The notes under the pieces were generated by a model that ran no database searches, was not told where the DNA came from, and saw nothing but the letters and a program-made list of their open reading frames with translations. Shown here piece by piece: positions 5,264 through 33,852 of a stretch of DNA of 50,457 nt. How positions within the stretch are numbered: position 1 is the stretch's first letter; every line of letters starts with the position of its first letter. This DNA comes from Actinomycetota bacterium (GTDB taxonomy: Bacteria > Actinomycetota > Acidimicrobiia > Spongiisociales > UBA5794). The stretch is from positions 1 to 50,457 of the forward strand of contig JAADIG010000154.1 in NCBI GenBank assembly GCA_013151445.1, written 5' to 3'. A program made the position numbers and the translations under genes.

Positions 5264-6034
5264 TTATCTCAGGAAGTCGACGAGCGACGGCTGGCTCGAG
5301 CGGGCGAATGCGGCAAGTGTCCATTGATACGCGGTCTCTTGGAGTTGCAGGTCGAGGATTGCCTCGGAACGGTCGAGATCCTCGATCTCGGTGAGGTTCG
5401 TCCTGATTGTCCGCAGGTCTTCCGTGCTCTTCGTTTTGGCGTATTCGACCCGGTTGGTGGCCGCTCCAAGCTGTGAAAGGCTGGTGAGCACTGTGTCCAT
5501 TGCGGTATCGATCTCGCCGAGCGCGATATCGATCCCTGCCTGGCTGTTCACATTGAGGGCACCCACAAAATCGTCGAGGGTCGTGAACATGTCCTTGGGA
5601 CTGGTGAATCCGAATACCTGGTCGGCGGTGAGGTTCACCTGGACGACCTCGTTCTCTCCGACCCTACGGTTGAAGGCGCCGTTGTCGCCGGTGCAGGTCC
5701 AAGCCGCACCGCAGAGTTGTACCGGATCGGCAGCACTGAAACCGGAGAAGAGTGGTCGACCTTGATAACGGCTGTTCGCCAGGTCCACGAGGTCATCTTT
5801 CAGTGAATCGACCTCGGCGGCGATGGCAGTCCGTTCGTCCGTGCTGGTGAACGTCGCCCCCCGAACTGCAAGCTCACGGACCCGCCGCAGCCGTCCGGTG
5901 ACGCCCTGGAGTGCCGTGTCCGTAAGGTCAAGCCACTGGGTACCGTCTTCGGCATTCCGGGTCTCCTGCTGGCAGGCCCCGTCGGCCGCCTGGCGACCCG
6001 AGAATGTGGCGTACAGCGAGACGAAACTTCCCAT
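5264..6034 (-). CDS. flgL: FlgL (hook-filament junction protein), N-terminally truncated
   Basis: A 256-residue protein whose residues 26 to the end match FlgL/HAP3. RNAEDGTQWLDLTDTALQGV and RRVRELAVRGAT are the conserved segment after the first helix, and the C-terminal LQETAYQWTLAAFARSSQPS with final LVDFLR is the standard D0 helix. FlgL joins the hook-associated zone to the filament and is exported by the flagellar type III system. The usual first 40-50 residues, which carry the N-terminal D0 helix and export region, are missing: the protein opens with about 25 unrelated residues. The start overlaps the flgN stop as TGATG, so this reading frame is coupled. The gene may be non-functional or depend on a second copy elsewhere. 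Confidence 0.8.
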   Translation of the reverse strand: MGSFVSLYATFSGRQAADGACQQETRNAEDGTQWLDLTDTALQGVTGRLRRVRELAVRGATFTSTDERTAIAAEVDSLKDDLVDLANSRYQGRPLFSGFSAADPVQLCGAAWTCTGDNGAFNRRVGENEVVQVNLTADQVFGFTSPKDMFTTLDDFVGALNVNSQAGIDIALGEIDTAMDTVLTSLSQLGAATNRVEYAKTKSTEDLRTIRTNLTEIEDLDRSEAILDLQLQETAYQWTLAAFARSSQPSLVDFLR

Positions 6035-6564
6035 CAGAGCACCCGATCCACTTGTGATGGTCGCTGTGATGTGGGACCGAGCCGTCCGTCGTCGGTGTCC
6101 GACTGGGTATCGATGCTGGCATCGGGTGTCCCGCCCGCAAGCCGGAGCGTGCCCGTGATTTCGTCAAGGTCAAGGGTTGCGAGGTGACGGTTCTCCCGGG
6201 TGAGGGTCTCAATTTCGTTGGTGAGATCCATGAACCCGTCGCGATGATCCGCAAACACGGAGCGCATATCCGCCGGTGCGTTTTGCGCAAGAAGGTTCAG
6301 CGTGATCGTATCTGGCGGTACTCCCATTGTGGATGCCACCTCCGCGAGGACCGTATCGCGATCCTTCTCTGCGTGGCGTACCTTGCTGGCTACTTTGTCG
6401 ACCTCGGCGATTGCGGGACCCACAAACCGACGGTCGTCGGTGGCGAGCACCAGATTCGCCGAGACGAGTTTGAACAGCAGAAATTCCAACAGCCGACGCT
6501 CATGCCAGAGCGTTTCGGCGAGCCGGCTGAGTTGGTCCGGGTTTTGATGGGTTGTGGTCATCAC
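6034..6564 (-). CDS. flgN: FlgN-like flagellar export chaperone, copy 2
   Basis: A 176-residue helical protein, homologous by eye to the product of 4456-5022. It precedes flgL directly, the usual place of flgN near hook-associated protein genes, and this supports a chaperone role for FlgL or FlgK. The start is GTG at 6564 or ATG at 6561. Neither has a Shine-Dalgarno site, but the FliA-like promoter at 6571-6597 would start the transcript almost exactly at the GTG, so translation is probably leaderless. The stop overlaps the flgL ATG by one base (TGATG). The C-terminal 30 residues are polar and likely disordered. Confidence 0.76.
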   Translation of the reverse strand: MMTTTHQNPDQLSRLAETLWHERRLLEFLLFKLVSANLVLATDDRRFVGPAIAEVDKVASKVRHAEKDRDTVLAEVASTMGVPPDTITLNLLAQNAPADMRSVFADHRDGFMDLTNEIETLTRENRHLATLDLDEITGTLRLAGGTPDASIDTQSDTDDGRLGPTSQRPSQVDRVL

Positions 6565-18459: not shown

Positions 18460-19176
18460 CTACTTGGTGGATTCCCAGGGTCGTGTCGCTAGAAGGGCGG
18501 CGCCACCGAGAACGAGTGCGCCGACAAGACTGAAAAGCACGACCGCTCCGACCTTTGACGATGCGAGGAGCAGCCGCGAGAGGCCGAATGCGACAGCCGC
18601 TGCGGTGACACCGGCAATGATGGGCCATCCGATGGCGCGTCCGGTTTCGCGCAGGAACCCGGCGGTCGTTAGCGGTACCGCAGATCCGGTGAACCCGACC
18701 GCATGGGGGTGCGAGATAGTGTTTGCGAACATCGCAATCATGGCCCCCACGATGCCGCCGGTCACGACAGCGATGAGTGCCATTCGTAGTATCGGGATCG
18801 TGACGTTGCCACCGTCGATTTCGCCAGCGAGGGCGAGCAGTCCCCGGGTGATCGGGAAACCGACGGCTGCGCCAAGTACTGCCCCAACACTTGCAACATA
18901 CCGGGCCGGGTAACGCTCCCTTGCTGGGTCGGACCGTGTGCCGGCCGCATACCCGACGAGGGCCATCGCGGCACCTCCGACAAGGCCGATGACGAGAAGT
19001 GCGAGAAAAAGTGCGCCGTGGGTCACCACGATGGTGGTGCCACCTGGTGTACCCAACGCAGCGGTTTCGATCGAGGACATCGCCGTCAAGGGTCCAAACA
19101 ACGCAAACGCACCGAGACCAAAGAGAGCACCCGCTACAACGCCGTATCCGGCGACTCTCGTTCCGTTTGCTTGCAT
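18460..19176 (-). CDS. Polytopic membrane protein of unknown function
   Basis: A 238-residue protein rich in Gly, Ala and Val with about six hydrophobic helices and no catalytic motif I can recognise. The sequence FGLGAFALFGPLTAM and GALLGxxxGFPITRG-type segments give it the look of a small-molecule permease or a structural membrane protein. It follows the LCP cluster on the same strand, with a hairpin between, so it may be a separate unit. Confidence 0.75.
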   Translation of the reverse strand: MQANGTRVAGYGVVAGALFGLGAFALFGPLTAMSSIETAALGTPGGTTIVVTHGALFLALLVIGLVGGAAMALVGYAAGTRSDPARERYPARYVASVGAVLGAAVGFPITRGLLALAGEIDGGNVTIPILRMALIAVVTGGIVGAMIAMFANTISHPHAVGFTGSAVPLTTAGFLRETGRAIGWPIIAGVTAAAVAFGLSRLLLASSKVGAVVLFSLVGALVLGGAALLATRPWESTK

Positions 19177-19303: not shown

Positions 19304-20218
19304 TTACGTCTTGCAGACATCGGGGGAGTAGATCCCCCGGACGATGCCAGTGTCTGCGATTGACGTCAATGGACCCCACAGGAGGAGGTCGCCGCTGTTC
19401 TTGGAGAGCAACCGGAACACGGTTGCACCCGTGTTCGGGTCCAACTCCTTGCGGAGGTCGAACGATGACTTGTAGATTCGGTCGAGATCGGACACACGAT
19501 CCGACAGCGCCAACCCGGACAGTGTCTTGAGTTGGGACCCGGGTGCGTCGGCGGATCCCTCAAATTTTAGGTCGAGGCGATAACCGACGAATTTTGCGTC
19601 CGACCCTTCGCCGCGAGCTACCGCCTTGAACGTACCCCATTGGACGATGCGTTCGGTGTCGCCCACACAAACACCGTACCCCCCAATGGATGCCGTTGGA
19701 CCGGTGTCGTCGTCGGGTGCACCTAAACTTGCGACCAGGCGGCCAAACGCTTGATCTGCGGGTACTCCGAACTCAATGGGCCCGATTCCGTTGGTCTGCA
19801 ACGTGAGTTCGGAGACCGGGATTGCCTCTCCGACCGGTGTGATGCCACCTGCCGTGGGATCAACGGGCGTTGTGGTGCTGCCCGCGGCGGTATCGGGCAC
19901 CGTGGTCGACGTTGTTCCGTCACCCGGCGTTTGTGTGTTATCCCCGGGTGTCGCGGTGGTCGTCGTCGTGTTTGTCGGTGCGGCAACGTTGTCGTTCCCT
20001 CCACCGATCAGTTTGACTGTGGCCAGGCTCAACGCGACGAGGAGAAGGCCAACGATCAGGCCGGTGAGCGCGGGGGCTCGAGGTGGTGTCGCCGCGGGGA
20101 CGTCCGAGTCCTCAAGGTCCGGCACCGTATCGGAGCTGGACAGATCAGAGAGCCCGTCATACGGGTCAAAGAGCCCGTCATACAGGTCGTCTGGGCCGTC
20201 ATCAAACTTGTCGCTCAC
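19304..20218 (-). CDS. Membrane protein with LCP-cluster extracellular domain (paralogue 2)
   Basis: A 304-residue protein: acidic cytoplasmic N-terminus (1-45) with three YDGL-like repeats, one membrane helix (about 50-71), a Thr/Pro linker rich in TTTT (75-130), and an extracellular domain (about 134-304). This domain is homologous by eye to the C-terminal domain of 22231-23775. Shared marks are GPxxFG, GRLxAxxGxPD, a G-C pair, the FVGYR segment, LxTLSG, FRLLS, LLLxGP and the ending GIYSxDxC. Two cysteines (about 184 and 302) are conserved between the copies and could form a disulfide. No known family is recognised beyond a loose likeness to small actinobacterial exported domains. GTG 20218 has GGAAG seven bases upstream; GTG 20239 is possible. 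It lies 84 bases after the LCP fusion gene. Confidence 0.82.
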   Translation of the reverse strand: MSDKFDDGPDDLYDGLFDPYDGLSDLSSSDTVPDLEDSDVPAATPPRAPALTGLIVGLLLVALSLATVKLIGGGNDNVAAPTNTTTTTATPGDNTQTPGDGTTSTTVPDTAAGSTTTPVDPTAGGITPVGEAIPVSELTLQTNGIGPIEFGVPADQAFGRLVASLGAPDDDTGPTASIGGYGVCVGDTERIVQWGTFKAVARGEGSDAKFVGYRLDLKFEGSADAPGSQLKTLSGLALSDRVSDLDRIYKSSFDLRKELDPNTGATVFRLLSKNSGDLLLWGPLTSIADTGIVRGIYSPDVCKT

Positions 20219-20302
20219 AGGGTCACTTCCGTTGCACACGGGGGCAGTGTGTCACCGGCATTGTATGCGGGTCGCCGCCACAAGCACAGCCTTTCGTTCC
20301 CG

Positions 20303-22234
20303 CTATGACAACGCCTTTGAGATTCGGTCGGGGTACGCCTCGTTAAGGATGTCTTCGAACGAGCGGGTGGGCAGCAGTACGTATTTGACGGTGCCGTCCG
20401 GGTTCTCGACTGTGTAGTCCTTTACCGGAATGGAAAGGCGGTGGATTTCGTCCAGGTTTGTTGAGCGGAAACCCCAGGCGAGCCGCACCGCATCGGGGAG
20501 GCTGAGCTGGTCGTCGAGAGTGAAGGCGTTGGAGAGGCCTCTCACTGTTCCCATCAGCTCGGACACCGAACTGAAGTTCTTGGCCTTCGAGAATAGCGCC
20601 AGGACCATCTCCTGCTGGCGTTGGTTTCGGGTGAGGTCGGTGACCCCCGGCATGATGCGCCACCGGCCATTTACTAGTTCCTGCGTGGTCCGTGATCGGA
20701 CCCATGCAAGTGCCTGGTCCCCCGAGGCGAGTGTGCAGCCGCCGGGGAGATTGAGGTCGGCCTTGCGGTCACGAACCGGGTACTCCGTACAGATCTCGAT
20801 GCCACCAAGCTCATCCACGATTTCCTCGAACCCCGCGAAGGTGAAGAGGGCAAAGTGGTCCACGGGTATTCCCGTGAAGTCGGACACCGTGAGGGCGAGC
20901 AACGTGGGTCCGTTGATCTCATCGCGGCACCCAAAGAAGGTCACGTTGATACGGGTGTAGTTCTGTCGACAACGGTTCGGGAGGTAGAGATCGCGGGGGA
21001 GCGAGACCATGGCCGGGGTCGAGCCGTCGTTCGGATCAAGCAGCAGGACGACGACATCGGCCCGCTTCTCGCTCTCGTCGGTTCCAACGATGAGATAGGT
21101 CGTGAATTCGCTGGAATCGGCTGGCGGGGATGAAACCGGGGGTATCACTACTTCATCAAACTCGGGCAGTTCCAGTGCGTCTGCCGGGAGTGGTTCCAGA
21201 AGATCTGCGGCTGCGGCGAGGTCGTTCACGACCGTTTGACGGCCGCTCCAGGTGCGCAATGCTTGATATCCCGTCCAGGCGCTGAACCCAGCGAGAATCA
21301 GCAGCCCCGTGGCGACAGACCGTAGCGCCATGCCCCGCCAGGTCACTCGACCCGATGGTCTGCGTGCCGATCGGGAAATGTAACCAACGATTGGTGCCCC
21401 GCTGTCCCGGTGTGCGGTAGCGGCATTCTCCAGGGCCTGGGCGGTGGTGTGCTCATTGATGACGAGGATCGTCCCGTCGGCATGGGCACCGATGCCGGTG
21501 TCGACGTGTGACCAGAACGCCGGAGGTACGTCGACGAGGATCAGGTCGGTGCCGTCGGCGATCTGATCCAGGGCGGAGGCGACAGTGGCCGATCCGAGGA
21601 TGGTTTCGTCGTCACCGATCTCCCCGGCGGGGACCATCGGTAGGCGTTTGGTGGGACCGACGGCCCACAGCCGGGCCGATCGTGCAAGATCGGATTCTCC
21701 GCGAGCTAACTCGGCGAGTCCGGGTGAGGAACCGGTGTGGACAAAACGCGAGAGGCCACGCTGGGACATGTCTCCGTCAACAAGGATCACCCTGCGGTTA
21801 TCGAGAGTCATGGCAAATGCGAGGTTCATCGCAACGGTGCTTGATCCGATCCCGGGGGACACACCGGCGATCTGGAGAATCTGCCCGGTCGTTTCAGCCT
21901 CGACCCGACGGGCGATGTCGCGGTACTCGGCCGCTGCAGAACTTTCCGGGTCGACGAGGGTTGGGCTGGGCGAATCGGTGTACGCCGAAATGTTTCCGAG
22001 GTGCACCGTTCCTGCCACCGGAGCCAGCCGTCGCGCCTGGTACCGACGTGCGAGGATGAGCCAACCGAGCCCGGCTACCAGTCCTGAGGTAGCTCCCGTA
22101 ACCATCATTGCGGTAGGCGTGCTCCATGTCGCGGTGACGATGCCGAAGAGTACGATCGCGGCGATCAATGGAAGCAGGGTTCGTACGGTGAAGAATCGAC
22201 GGGATCGGCGGCGGCGGCGCTTGAATAACTTCAT
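20303..22234 (-). CDS. Fusion of degenerate BY-kinase-like ATPase and LCP phosphotransferase
   Basis: A 643-residue membrane protein. Two helices (about 18-36 and 45-62) precede a cytoplasmic P-loop domain (about 95-290) of the CpsD/Wzc BY-kinase type: it has an A' motif VILVDGDMS (D153) and LILVDVPP (D235). The Walker A loop reads GVSPGIGSST (124-133), with serine 131 where the catalytic lysine should be, and there is no C-terminal Tyr cluster. A third helix (about 303-325) crosses the membrane. Residues 377-550 are an LCP (LytR-CpsA-Psr) domain with R391/D393, SLPRD (R414, D415) and DLTRNQRQQ (R536, R539). LCP enzymes move glycopolymers from lipid carrier to cell wall. The ATG overlaps the upstream stop as ATGA. 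Confidence 0.9.
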   Translation of the reverse strand: MKLFKRRRRRSRRFFTVRTLLPLIAAIVLFGIVTATWSTPTAMMVTGATSGLVAGLGWLILARRYQARRLAPVAGTVHLGNISAYTDSPSPTLVDPESSAAAEYRDIARRVEAETTGQILQIAGVSPGIGSSTVAMNLAFAMTLDNRRVILVDGDMSQRGLSRFVHTGSSPGLAELARGESDLARSARLWAVGPTKRLPMVPAGEIGDDETILGSATVASALDQIADGTDLILVDVPPAFWSHVDTGIGAHADGTILVINEHTTAQALENAATAHRDSGAPIVGYISRSARRPSGRVTWRGMALRSVATGLLILAGFSAWTGYQALRTWSGRQTVVNDLAAAADLLEPLPADALELPEFDEVVIPPVSSPPADSSEFTTYLIVGTDESEKRADVVVLLLDPNDGSTPAMVSLPRDLYLPNRCRQNYTRINVTFFGCRDEINGPTLLALTVSDFTGIPVDHFALFTFAGFEEIVDELGGIEICTEYPVRDRKADLNLPGGCTLASGDQALAWVRSRTTQELVNGRWRIMPGVTDLTRNQRQQEMVLALFSKAKNFSSVSELMGTVRGLSNAFTLDDQLSLPDAVRLAWGFRSTNLDEIHRLSIPVKDYTVENPDGTVKYVLLPTRSFEDILNEAYPDRISKALS

Positions 22235-23775
22235 GCGCTACACGCATCCCTCGAGTAGATACCCAGTATCGATCCATCATCGGCCTGTACCGATATTGGG
22301 CCATAGAGCAGTAGGCGTTGTGTGCCCGAGCGCAGCAGTCTGAAATACGGCTGACCATCAAGCTCGAAAAGCTCGATGGTCGAGTTCGCATAGATCTGGC
22401 GCAGTGTCGTGATGGTGTCCCCGATTGAGATCCCCGACAGTGTCGCGAGGTCCCCACCGGGATCCCCGTCGTCGATTCCCGTTGCGTCTCCGATGCGATA
22501 CCCAACAAACTCCGAGGTGCCGTCAACGTCGCGGAAGATCGCGGCGATTCCTCCCCAGGTGGCGACACTGCCGCTATCGGTGGCGCACAGACCCCAGGTC
22601 GTGTCTGCGGGTCCCAGTGAGTCGGGTTGGCCAAACGTTGCTGTGAGACGGCCAAGGACCTGCTCACCATTGCTCCCAAACGAGAATGGGCCAAACGCAA
22701 AGCCCCCCATCGTTAGCTCGCTGAGGGCGATGGGTGACCCGATGGCCGTCACCGGGGCGATGGTCGTGGTTGGGGGTGCAAGAGTTGTGGTTGATGGCGG
22801 GGTTGAACTGGTCGGTGGTGCCGCCGTGGTTGTGGTCTCCGGCGGCACCACGGTTGATTGTGCAACAACAGTCGTCGGCGGCGGGAATGTGGCATTGGGG
22901 CGAAACCAAGAGAGCCAAGCAATGACCCCAAGCGCCGCAACAGCGACCAGGCCGAGCGGAATCCTGGATCGTCGCTCCTTCGTTTCGTACGGTGTGTGGA
23001 TCGGCGTCATGGTGACCTCGGTCGCCACGCTCGACGAGGTCACCGTTGTTGGCCCATCGTCGTCCCAGTCGTCCTCTACGTCGTCGTCGGTGTCGTCCTC
23101 TACGTCGTCGTCTTGGTCGACGGGTTCATCCCAGTCGTTATCGCTGTCGTCGTGGTCGGCGTCTTCGTCCCACGTGTCTTGGACGTCGTCGTCGTCGCTG
23201 TCGTCGTCTTGGTCGACGGGTTCGTCCCAGTCGTTCTCGCTGTCGTCGTGGTCGGCGTCTTCGCTCCACGTGTCTTGGACGTCGTCGTCGCTGTCGTCGT
23301 CGCTGTCGTCGTCTTGGTCGACGGGTTCGTCCCAGTCGTTGTCGCTGTCGTCGTGGTCGGTGTCTTCGTCCCACGTGTCTTGGATGTCGTCGTCGGTGTC
23401 GTCGTCTTGGTCGACGGGTTCGTCCCAGTCGTTATCGCTGTCGTCGTGGTCGGTGTCTTCGTCCCACGTGTCTTGGATGTCGTCACCATCAATCGGCAGG
23501 GCCGCGGCCGCACCAGGTACCGAATCCTTGCCCACGGAGGTGTCTTTCCATCCAGGGTCCGCCACCGGCGATTCAGCCGAATCGGACGATCCATCGACCA
23601 ACTCGTCCGCAAGGTCGTCGAGGACATCGTCGACGTCGTGGAGATGCGCCGGTTCGGGTGGTGGTGGCGTGACGTACTCGTCGATCCAAGCCTCGCCGCA
23701 GGATCCACACACGGCATCAGAGGGGCTCCGGAGGGCTCCACAGAATATGCACGGGGTTCTACTGTCGTCTGTCAC
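22231..23775 (-). CDS. Zinc-ribbon, acidic-repeat membrane protein with LCP-cluster extracellular domain (paralogue 1)
   Basis: A 514-residue protein. The N-terminus has a CxxC...CxxC zinc ribbon (C9, C12, C23, C26). Residues about 97-238 are extremely acidic and hold four tandem units of 31-35 residues (core DDSDNDWDEPVDQDDD). One membrane helix (about 272-291) lies after an Arg/Lys patch, so the acidic part is predicted cytoplasmic. A Pro/Thr linker leads to an extracellular domain (about 348-514) that is homologous to that of 19304-20218. The start is placed at GTG 23775, 28 bases after the preceding stop; an upstream in-frame start at 23841 would overlap that gene. The stop overlaps the LCP fusion ATG (ATGA), so the pair is co-translated. 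Function unknown; a scaffold or regulator of the fusion protein is inferred. Confidence 0.85.
   Translation of the reverse strand: MTDDSRTPCIFCGALRSPSDAVCGSCGEAWIDEYVTPPPPEPAHLHDVDDVLDDLADELVDGSSDSAESPVADPGWKDTSVGKDSVPGAAAALPIDGDDIQDTWDEDTDHDDSDNDWDEPVDQDDDTDDDIQDTWDEDTDHDDSDNDWDEPVDQDDDSDDDSDDDVQDTWSEDADHDDSENDWDEPVDQDDDSDDDDVQDTWDEDADHDDSDNDWDEPVDQDDDVEDDTDDDVEDDWDDDGPTTVTSSSVATEVTMTPIHTPYETKERRSRIPLGLVAVAALGVIAWLSWFRPNATFPPPTTVVAQSTVVPPETTTTAAPPTSSTPPSTTTLAPPTTTIAPVTAIGSPIALSELTMGGFAFGPFSFGSNGEQVLGRLTATFGQPDSLGPADTTWGLCATDSGSVATWGGIAAIFRDVDGTSEFVGYRIGDATGIDDGDPGGDLATLSGISIGDTITTLRQIYANSTIELFELDGQPYFRLLRSGTQRLLLYGPISVQADDGSILGIYSRDACSA
23103..23490. repeat. Four in-frame tandem repeats coding Asp-rich units
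   Basis: A TTGGTCGACGGGTTC core recurs at 23113, 23209, 23314 and 23407, giving periods of 96, 105 and 93 bases. All are multiples of three, so copy number can change without breaking the frame. Units differ mainly in the number of short GTC/GTCGTC steps between cores. The array lies inside the coding region of 22231-23775. Confidence 0.9.
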
Positions 23776-32535: not shown

Positions 32536-33852
32536 TTACTCCGTTCGAGTCACGACGATTCGGGATGTGACTCCGGCGGGTGTCGACATCGCCGTATGGT
32601 CCATCATGGTATATGACTGCCCTGCCGTGTAGGTGGTTTCGCCAATAGTCACCTCGCCGGATTGGACGACGTGGACGCCGAGAGGGGTGTCGTCTGCGGG
32701 AACGTGTGTGTTGGCAGTGAGGTCCATGGTGACGACCGAACCGTCTGTTGTCACGGTGTGCAGGGATCCCCACGGGTGTTCCGTCACGAGGTGAGAGAGG
32801 AGCTCCGGTCGGTTGGATGCGGCGAGGTTGTCGACGATCTCCTTCACGCGCTGCGTCTGCCCTCTCGGTACGACGAGTACTGCGTCGTCGGTCGCGACAA
32901 CGATGAGGTCACTCACACCACTGACTGCGACGAGTGGGCCGTCGGATCGCACATACGAGTTGCGGACACCGGACACGAGAACGTCACCTGTGGTGGCGGT
33001 TCCAAGTTTGTCCTTCGGGGCGATATCCCACACCGCAGCCCAACTACCGACATCGCTCCATCCGGCGTCAAGAGGGACAACCGCACCGGCTTCGGTGTGT
33101 TCCATGACGGCGTAGTCGATCGAGTCGGACGGGCACTTCTCGAACGCCTCCCGGTCGAGGACGACGGTGCCATCGGTGTTACGGGACGCCCGTTCCCATG
33201 TCGCTGTTACGGCATCCGCCATCTCGGGTGCGTGCGAGCGGAGCTGGTCAAGGTAGGTCGCCGCACCGAGTGCAAACATGCCGCTGTTCCAGAGGTAGTT
33301 ACCCGAGGATACGTAGTCGTGGGCGGTCTCAATGTCGGGTTTTTCGACAAACTCTGCCAACGTCGAGGCGGTACCACTCAACGGGTCACCGATCCGGACG
33401 TATCCGTAGCCGGTTTCGGGGTGAGTCGGAATGACTCCGAAAGTCACGAGGAGGCCACGGCTGGCGAGCGAGATCGCCTCCGCGGCTGCCTTAGAGAACG
33501 CAGCCTCGTCCGGGATAAGGTGATCGGCGGGGATGACGAGCAGCACGTCTCGCGGATCCGATGCCAAGGCCGCAAACGCTACCGCTGGCGCTGTGTTGCG
33601 TCCGAACGGTTCGAGAATCAGGCGCGGAGAGTATCCCGCGTCGGCTAACTCGGCGGCGACGAGATGGTCATGGTTGGCTGAGCACACAACAATCGGGTCC
33701 TTGGCGTTTGGAAGCGCCGTCACCCTGTCGATCGTCATGCGCAGCATGGAGCGTGTTTCCACCAACGGTAGGAGCTGCTTGGGTTGTTGGGCCCGGGATA
33801 CCGGCCACAAGCGGGTTCCGGCCCCACCGGAAAGAATGACTGGGACAACCAA
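32536..33852 (-). CDS. manC: Mannose-1-phosphate guanylyltransferase
   Basis: A 438-residue enzyme that makes GDP-mannose from GTP and mannose-1-phosphate. The nucleotide-binding signature ILSGGAGTRLWPVSR is at residues 6-20, with PKQLLPL following. PADHLIPDEAAF holds the metal-binding aspartate, and VEKPD with NSGMF form the sugar-binding part. The C-terminal 110 residues form a beta-rich domain as in bifunctional ManC/AlgA, but no HxxR isomerase site is evident, so it is probably monofunctional. TTG 33852 has GAAGG six bases upstream. GDP-mannose feeds cell-wall glycans and lipoglycans. Confidence 0.92.
   Translation of the reverse strand: MVVPVILSGGAGTRLWPVSRAQQPKQLLPLVETRSMLRMTIDRVTALPNAKDPIVVCSANHDHLVAAELADAGYSPRLILEPFGRNTAPAVAFAALASDPRDVLLVIPADHLIPDEAAFSKAAAEAISLASRGLLVTFGVIPTHPETGYGYVRIGDPLSGTASTLAEFVEKPDIETAHDYVSSGNYLWNSGMFALGAATYLDQLRSHAPEMADAVTATWERASRNTDGTVVLDREAFEKCPSDSIDYAVMEHTEAGAVVPLDAGWSDVGSWAAVWDIAPKDKLGTATTGDVLVSGVRNSYVRSDGPLVAVSGVSDLIVVATDDAVLVVPRGQTQRVKEIVDNLAASNRPELLSHLVTEHPWGSLHTVTTDGSVVTMDLTANTHVPADDTPLGVHVVQSGEVTIGETTYTAGQSYTMMDHTAMSTPAGVTSRIVVTRTE

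Follow-up and report, generated by a model that had tools for sequence, protein, structure and literature searches.

LCP proteins attach polymers to the cell wall (PMC7831098, PMC12220298). Ligation by LcpC of S. aureus is enhanced in vitro by CapA1, a membrane adaptor (PMC6441080). The closest described arrangement, CapA/CapB (CpsC/CpsD) with LcpC/CpsA of the Firmicutes, likewise combines an LCP ligase with a BY-kinase and a membrane adaptor bearing an extracellular domain. A second precedent is provided by the BY-pseudokinases EcpK (Myxococcus) and HfsB (Caulobacter), in which the BY-kinase fold has neither the Tyr tail nor the residues for catalysis; EcpK acts as a scaffold, and proteins of this kind are proposed to serve polysaccharide assembly without phosphorylation (PMC12004946). 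In Mycobacterium, the single-pass, LytR_C-only proteins VirR and Cei have been proposed to take part in LCP-dependent attachment (PMC7831098). The wider question is how LCP ligases are tied to polymer production beyond the Firmicutes; our literature search found nothing on point for an LCP-BY-kinase fusion or for LCP proteins in Acidimicrobiia. Here we describe a three-gene locus from an uncultured family of this class that looks like a new version of the LCP/BY-kinase capsule-attachment theme.

The locus lies in a 50,457-nucleotide stretch of contig JAADIG010000154.1 (the window, to which all coordinates refer unless a locus is named). Its three genes, A, B and C, follow one another in this order on the minus strand, and all three reading frames are open (3/3). 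Gene A (22231 to 23775; 514 amino acids, GTG start) encodes, from its translation, a zinc ribbon, an acidic repeat, a transmembrane segment, a Pro/Thr linker and an extracytoplasmic tandem-repeat domain. Gene B (20303 to 22234; 643 amino acids) encodes two transmembrane helices, a Wzc-like BY-pseudokinase domain, a further transmembrane helix and an LCP domain, as assigned by Pfam/NCBIfam, PDB sequence matches, AlphaFold and Foldseek. Gene C (19304 to 20218; 304 amino acids, GTG start) encodes a short conserved cytoplasmic segment, a transmembrane segment, a Thr-rich linker and an extracytoplasmic domain (translation and alignment). The first-pass annotation had described two paralogous membrane proteins around an LCP fusion, and this description held: A and C flank B and have homologous C-terminal domains. 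New relative to it are the zinc ribbon of A and the domain make-up of B. It had also reported that A and B are coupled by an ATGA overlap. The overlap is present in the window (22231 to 22234) but absent in most relatives, with an A-B gap of ~34 bp in L032, from the window's genus, and of 92 to 95 bp in L033 and L035 (ORF coordinates); we therefore rejected it as a general trait. Downstream of C, at 18460 to 19176, lies a gene for a conserved multi-helix membrane protein (TM6) without a Pfam match, which was also found in many relatives from the window's family (f1) and from the sister families f2 and f8. Elsewhere in the window, a GDP-mannose pyrophosphorylase-like gene is located ~9 kb away from A-B-C (32536 to 33852), and flagellin-like and FlgN-like genes (5264 to 6564) suggest motility.

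We examined protein B domain by domain (all features on the minus strand). Its two N-terminal transmembrane helices (22040 to 22186; model helices 17-36 and 40-65) are joined by a loop of 3 residues, and the AlphaFold model, of moderate quality (pLDDT 79, pTM 0.52), contains no Wzz extracytoplasmic domain between them. The P-loop domain that follows (21350 to 21952) most resembles the BY-kinases Wzc and CapB (E=1.5e-17 with Wzc in phmmer; Foldseek). Its Walker A motif is degenerate (SPGIGSST, 21836 to 21859), with the catalytic Lys replaced by Ser; throughout the family members with this domain the Lys is missing and the position holds Ser, Ala or Thr. There is no C-terminal Tyr cluster in the kinase part: residues 290-305 are without Tyr, and the domain runs straight into the third transmembrane helix (21245 to 21340; model helix 299-330). 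The same genome has a separate 605-codon frame with weak Wzz and BY-kinase matches in which the Walker A Lys is present, so the loss of this residue is specific to B. Between the window and L032, dN was 0.13 for the pseudokinase part and 0.12 for the LCP part, with dS saturated. As judged from sequence, the degenerate kinase domain of B is under strong purifying selection. B also offers a naturally occurring parallel to K540M, an engineered mutant of Wzc.

The extracytoplasmic part of B (20306 to 21106, minus strand) is an LCP ligase domain by Pfam (PF03816, E=3.5e-26, 92.6 bits with a cut-off of 24.6) and by TIGR00350 (79.4 bits, cut-off 62.3), aligns with TagT and an A. oris LCP protein, and resembles TagT, TagV and A. 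oris LCP in Foldseek comparisons. It carries the motifs PRD, VRSR and DLTRNQRQQ, which across the family read PRD, VRSR (VRTR in one member) and DLxRNxxQQ. The arginine motifs (PRD; VRxR) are kept in all members with the domain and align to TagT, in which roles for the active-site arginines R118 and R219 have been described (PMC7831098). The two halves of B are not always joined: they are encoded by separate genes in L049 and L050, and in L034 (3752 to 4606) the LCP half of B is gone and the P-loop shows further erosion, with A and C still present and other LCP genes in the genome (G008). Compared with CapA/CapB-LcpC, the LCP domain here shares one polypeptide with the BY-kinase-like part, which is catalytically degenerate. 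A Wzz-type external domain is missing as well, and there are instead two accessory proteins with one transmembrane segment each and an unrelated external domain. Unlike EcpK and HfsB, which partner a PCP-2 co-polymerase, the pseudokinase of B forms a single protein with an LCP ligase, and much of its Walker A' and Walker B is retained. The unit thereby hard-wires a BY-kinase-like module to the ligase within one protein, a coupling apparently made without phosphorylation chemistry.

To determine how broadly the locus is conserved, we searched for relatives of C. A single-sequence search of genome contigs with the C domain returned no relatives, and a profile search with the full C protein did; those relatives that bear a name come from uncultured organisms, for the most part metagenome assemblies of Acidimicrobiia, UBA5794 among them. 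The domain was found in 48/50 genomes of the window's family. Among 20 fetched loci, all from this uncultured Acidimicrobiia family and picked for two closely linked domain matches, the A-B-C order was identical in every one (20/20). Across the family, at least 66 of the 88 strong domain matches have an LCP domain no more than 3 kb away, in at least 37 genomes, at least 29 of which have both copies; the remaining 22 mostly sit at contig ends, fall outside the LCP matches listed or are GT2 fusions. The weaker superfamily matches are hardly linked at all, with at least 2/37 near an LCP domain, one of them a contig-end fragment. The earlier proposal of a three-part unit is supported by the recurring A-LCP-C order in these linkage-chosen loci and by the proximity of the strong matches to LCP genes.

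The C-terminal regions of A and C are 38% identical over 206 residues (BLASTP, E=4e-31), and a search of the whole genome with the C domain returned just the A and C copies at E≤1. The domain spans 22234 to 22752 in A (BLASTP to C; alignment) and 19307 to 19864 in C (AlphaFold model), both on the minus strand. As the first-pass annotation had it, the shared domain has two conserved cysteines: exactly two were present in each of 42/42 domains from 21 loci, one invariant in the alignment and the other nearly so, and they probably form a disulphide. No family with another role was recognized, since the domain matched nothing by sequence in Pfam, NCBIfam or the PDB (the Pfam scan including 42 members). 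The domain can accordingly be called unrecognized with respect to curated libraries, but it is not an isolated one, having many relatives across the class. PF13399 (LytR_C) gave no match at E≤1 in A, C or the 42 domain homologues; in contrast to VirR and Cei, A and C are thus without a LytR_C match and carry a domain of ~170 residues with two conserved cysteines. The domain model (pLDDT 95, pTM 0.89) consists of two alpha/beta repeats. In VIA-align comparisons its nearest structure was E. coli YfeY (Z 9.4 over 129 residues), followed by the CAP-associated N-domains (4ifa and 4h0a; Z 7.3 and 6.9) and BLIP (Z ~5 over 65-69 residues), all at 7-13% identity and possibly with the same overall tandem alpha/beta fold. 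Foldseek against the PDB returned nothing below E=0.001 for this model, and the YfeY, CAP_assoc_N and BLIP family models gave no sequence match in the Pfam scan of the 42 members. As modeled, the domain is a tandem alpha/beta repeat with a possible resemblance to YfeY.

Domain matches, strong and weak pooled, occur in 89/296 sampled class genomes, with the window's family included. The first-pass annotation had asked whether the domain always sits next to LCP genes, and it does not: the wider superfamily is common without LCP neighbors, its weaker members sitting on lipoprotein-like, SLH, RTX-like, PG_binding_1-like-repeat and Hsp70-like proteins (the RTX, PG_binding_1 and Hsp70 assignments were read by eye from sequence). 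In sister family f2 the locus reads DUF255 - LCP - C, where the LCP protein has no kinase part (~365-425 amino acids in clean cases) and A is absent; at L112 and L119, C occurs without an adjacent LCP gene, and in f8 (L122) one zinc-ribbon version has no LCP neighbor, all of which counts against the membrane unit proposed below. A wide distribution without LCP neighbors had been named as grounds for giving up the LCP connection. This distribution holds for the superfamily and for L112, L119 and L122, whereas the A/C branch of the window's family is mostly LCP linked. By these sequence comparisons, then, the domain is not LCP specific, and its LCP-linked branch is much narrower than the domain as a whole. 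One could read the domain as a general wall- or glycan-binding module of the Acidimicrobiia, in which case A and C would touch the wall as anchors or sensors and need no contact with an LCP protein. The variety of proteins that carry the superfamily, and its spread over the class, favor such a reading; the strong LCP linkage of the A/C subfamily in f1 speaks against it, and so does the fact that the closest folds (YfeY, CAP-N and BLIP) are not established glycan binders, BLIP being a protein inhibitor. We regard a general wall module as possible but rather unlikely.

In a FastTree phylogeny, the A domains form one clade (support 0.96) that includes the GT2-fused copies, the C domains of f1 group apart from those of f2, and the f8 protein branches as sister to A with weak support (0.71). 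A and C occupy separate clades and are thus old paralogues maintained side by side. In each protein a single hydrophobic segment is followed by a Pro/Thr-rich linker, in agreement with the one-helix architecture first noted. The transmembrane segment of A was located by hydropathy at 22906 to 22962 (minus strand); that of C (LTGLIVGLLLVALSLATVK) lies at 20009 to 20068 (minus strand) and comprises invariant alignment columns. Acidic cytoplasmic N termini had also been reported for both proteins. In the window the cytoplasmic part of A does carry a net charge of -101 and that of C is mildly acidic, but the acidity of A is not conserved in the family: beyond the window's genus (-75 in L032), L033 (-55) is the one relative with strong acidity, and the charge in the remaining relatives lies between about -33 and +3. 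The high charge of A is due to a local 96-bp tandem repeat encoding an Asp/Glu-rich stretch (23083 to 23484, minus strand; TRF). We therefore rejected the acidic N terminus as the conserved feature of A. What is kept is a CxxC...CxxC zinc ribbon (CIFCG...CGSCG in the window, 23698 to 23751, minus strand; weak PF13248 match, E=0.42), found in the A orthologues of 20/21 loci, the 21st A being truncated by its contig. C has a short, mildly acidic cytoplasmic part whose sequence is highly conserved (DPYxDL...PPxSPLLTGL), and the cytoplasmic and membrane segments are both conserved in the alignment.

Such conserved cytoplasmic parts raise the possibility that A and C are transmembrane regulators, whose external domain would sense the wall and whose zinc ribbon or cytoplasmic segment would signal to the B pseudokinase or to other partners, the unit being mainly regulatory. 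Alongside the zinc ribbon of A and the juxtamembrane motif of C, this idea draws on the joining of the same external domain elsewhere to cytoplasmic Hsp70-like (L128, L142) or response regulator-GGDEF-GT2 modules. The latter occur in genus g13, where three A-type domains form a clade within A and, in two of the three, the domain belongs to a complete A-type protein (zinc ribbon, transmembrane segment, linker and domain) joined to a response regulator-GGDEF-GT2 protein; the GT2 part is polysaccharide-synthase-like. No such fusion was found in the window's own genome, which returned receiver-domain matches only. Since neither A nor C has a DNA-binding or kinase output domain, we consider a mainly regulatory unit improbable. 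The two g13 fusion genes (L052, 6600 to 9953; L053, 3945 to 7382) adjoin a GAF-histidine kinase gene, and in f2 (L121) a GT2 gene follows directly downstream of a related domain copy.

The usual neighbors of the unit are sigA (near A-B-C in most of the 20 loci) and cox genes (in about half) rather than a polysaccharide cluster, which counts against a role in glycan attachment. In one relative (G020, L147), B-C lie beside genes for Polysacc_synt_2, a Glycos_transf_4 family protein, a UDP-sugar dehydrogenase and GFO/IDH, and gene A is absent at the locus. The neighbors sigA, DUF255, TM6, ctaG and cox, none of them known to work with an LCP protein, are conserved too, and might suggest that the linkage is housekeeping synteny (sigA - DUF255 - A - B - C - ctaG - cox) of genes that are not functionally coupled. 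This is very improbable given that L044-L051 keep A-B-C with no DUF255, TM6, ctaG or cox found nearby and that the B-C pair of G020 adjoins a polysaccharide operon. Distance correlations gave their highest partial value within the triad for A-C (0.58-0.65), with a control pair, C-DUF255, also at 0.62; the A-B and C-B pairs were not clearly favored.

Taken together, the role of LCP proteins, the CapA1-LcpC and BY-pseudokinase precedents and the G020 operon lead us to favor, with moderate confidence, a membrane unit in which A, B and C attach a polyprenyl-linked glycopolymer to the wall, with B as ligase and pseudokinase scaffold and A and C as accessory subunits. An envelope role, as suggested in the first-pass annotation, is consistent with the LCP domain, with the surface-polysaccharide operon beside B-C in a relative and with the fusion of A-type proteins to polysaccharide-synthase-like GT2. 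Computation supplied the basis of the proposal, namely the conserved gene order, the identities of the domains and the fold of the shared one, the absence of catalytic residues and the purifying selection. B, presumed to be active as an LCP protein, would transfer the putative glycopolymer to the wall through its external LCP domain. Its Wzc-like domain, without Walker A Lys and Tyr tail, could serve as a phosphorylation-independent scaffold toward the polymer-making machinery, B being without the external Wzz domain expected of a true co-polymerase. In the presumed complex, the paired external domains of A and C (a tandem fold perhaps like that of YfeY, CAP-N and BLIP, with a probable disulphide) may interact with B, with one another or with the polymer as it emerges, and the zinc ribbon of A and the DPYxDL...PPxSP segment of C may contact the B pseudokinase or glycan synthases; the direction of any regulation within it is likewise presumed. 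A and C may, as the first-pass annotation suggested, dock directly with the LCP domain of B or with its glycan, although C can also occur without an adjacent LCP gene. More tentatively, and with considerable doubt, the unit could be a phosphorylation-independent wall-polymer terminator, in which a kinase module stripped of Wzz and catalysis is fused to the LCP domain, BLIP-like A and C replace Wzz, and chain handling and attachment would take place in one complex. The ligation unit is directly testable through its two conserved partners, A and C, and their unnamed, class-wide external domain.

Among the more distant carriers of this domain, proteins at L128 (4559 to 6124), L142 (1161 to 2714), L129 and L141, from other families of the class, combine it with an N-terminal Hsp70/actin-like ATPase region (by eye), a transmembrane segment and a Thr-rich linker. 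Those at L134, L137, L138 and L139 are lipoprotein-like and carry, besides a distant domain copy, a PG_binding_1-like repeat (by eye).
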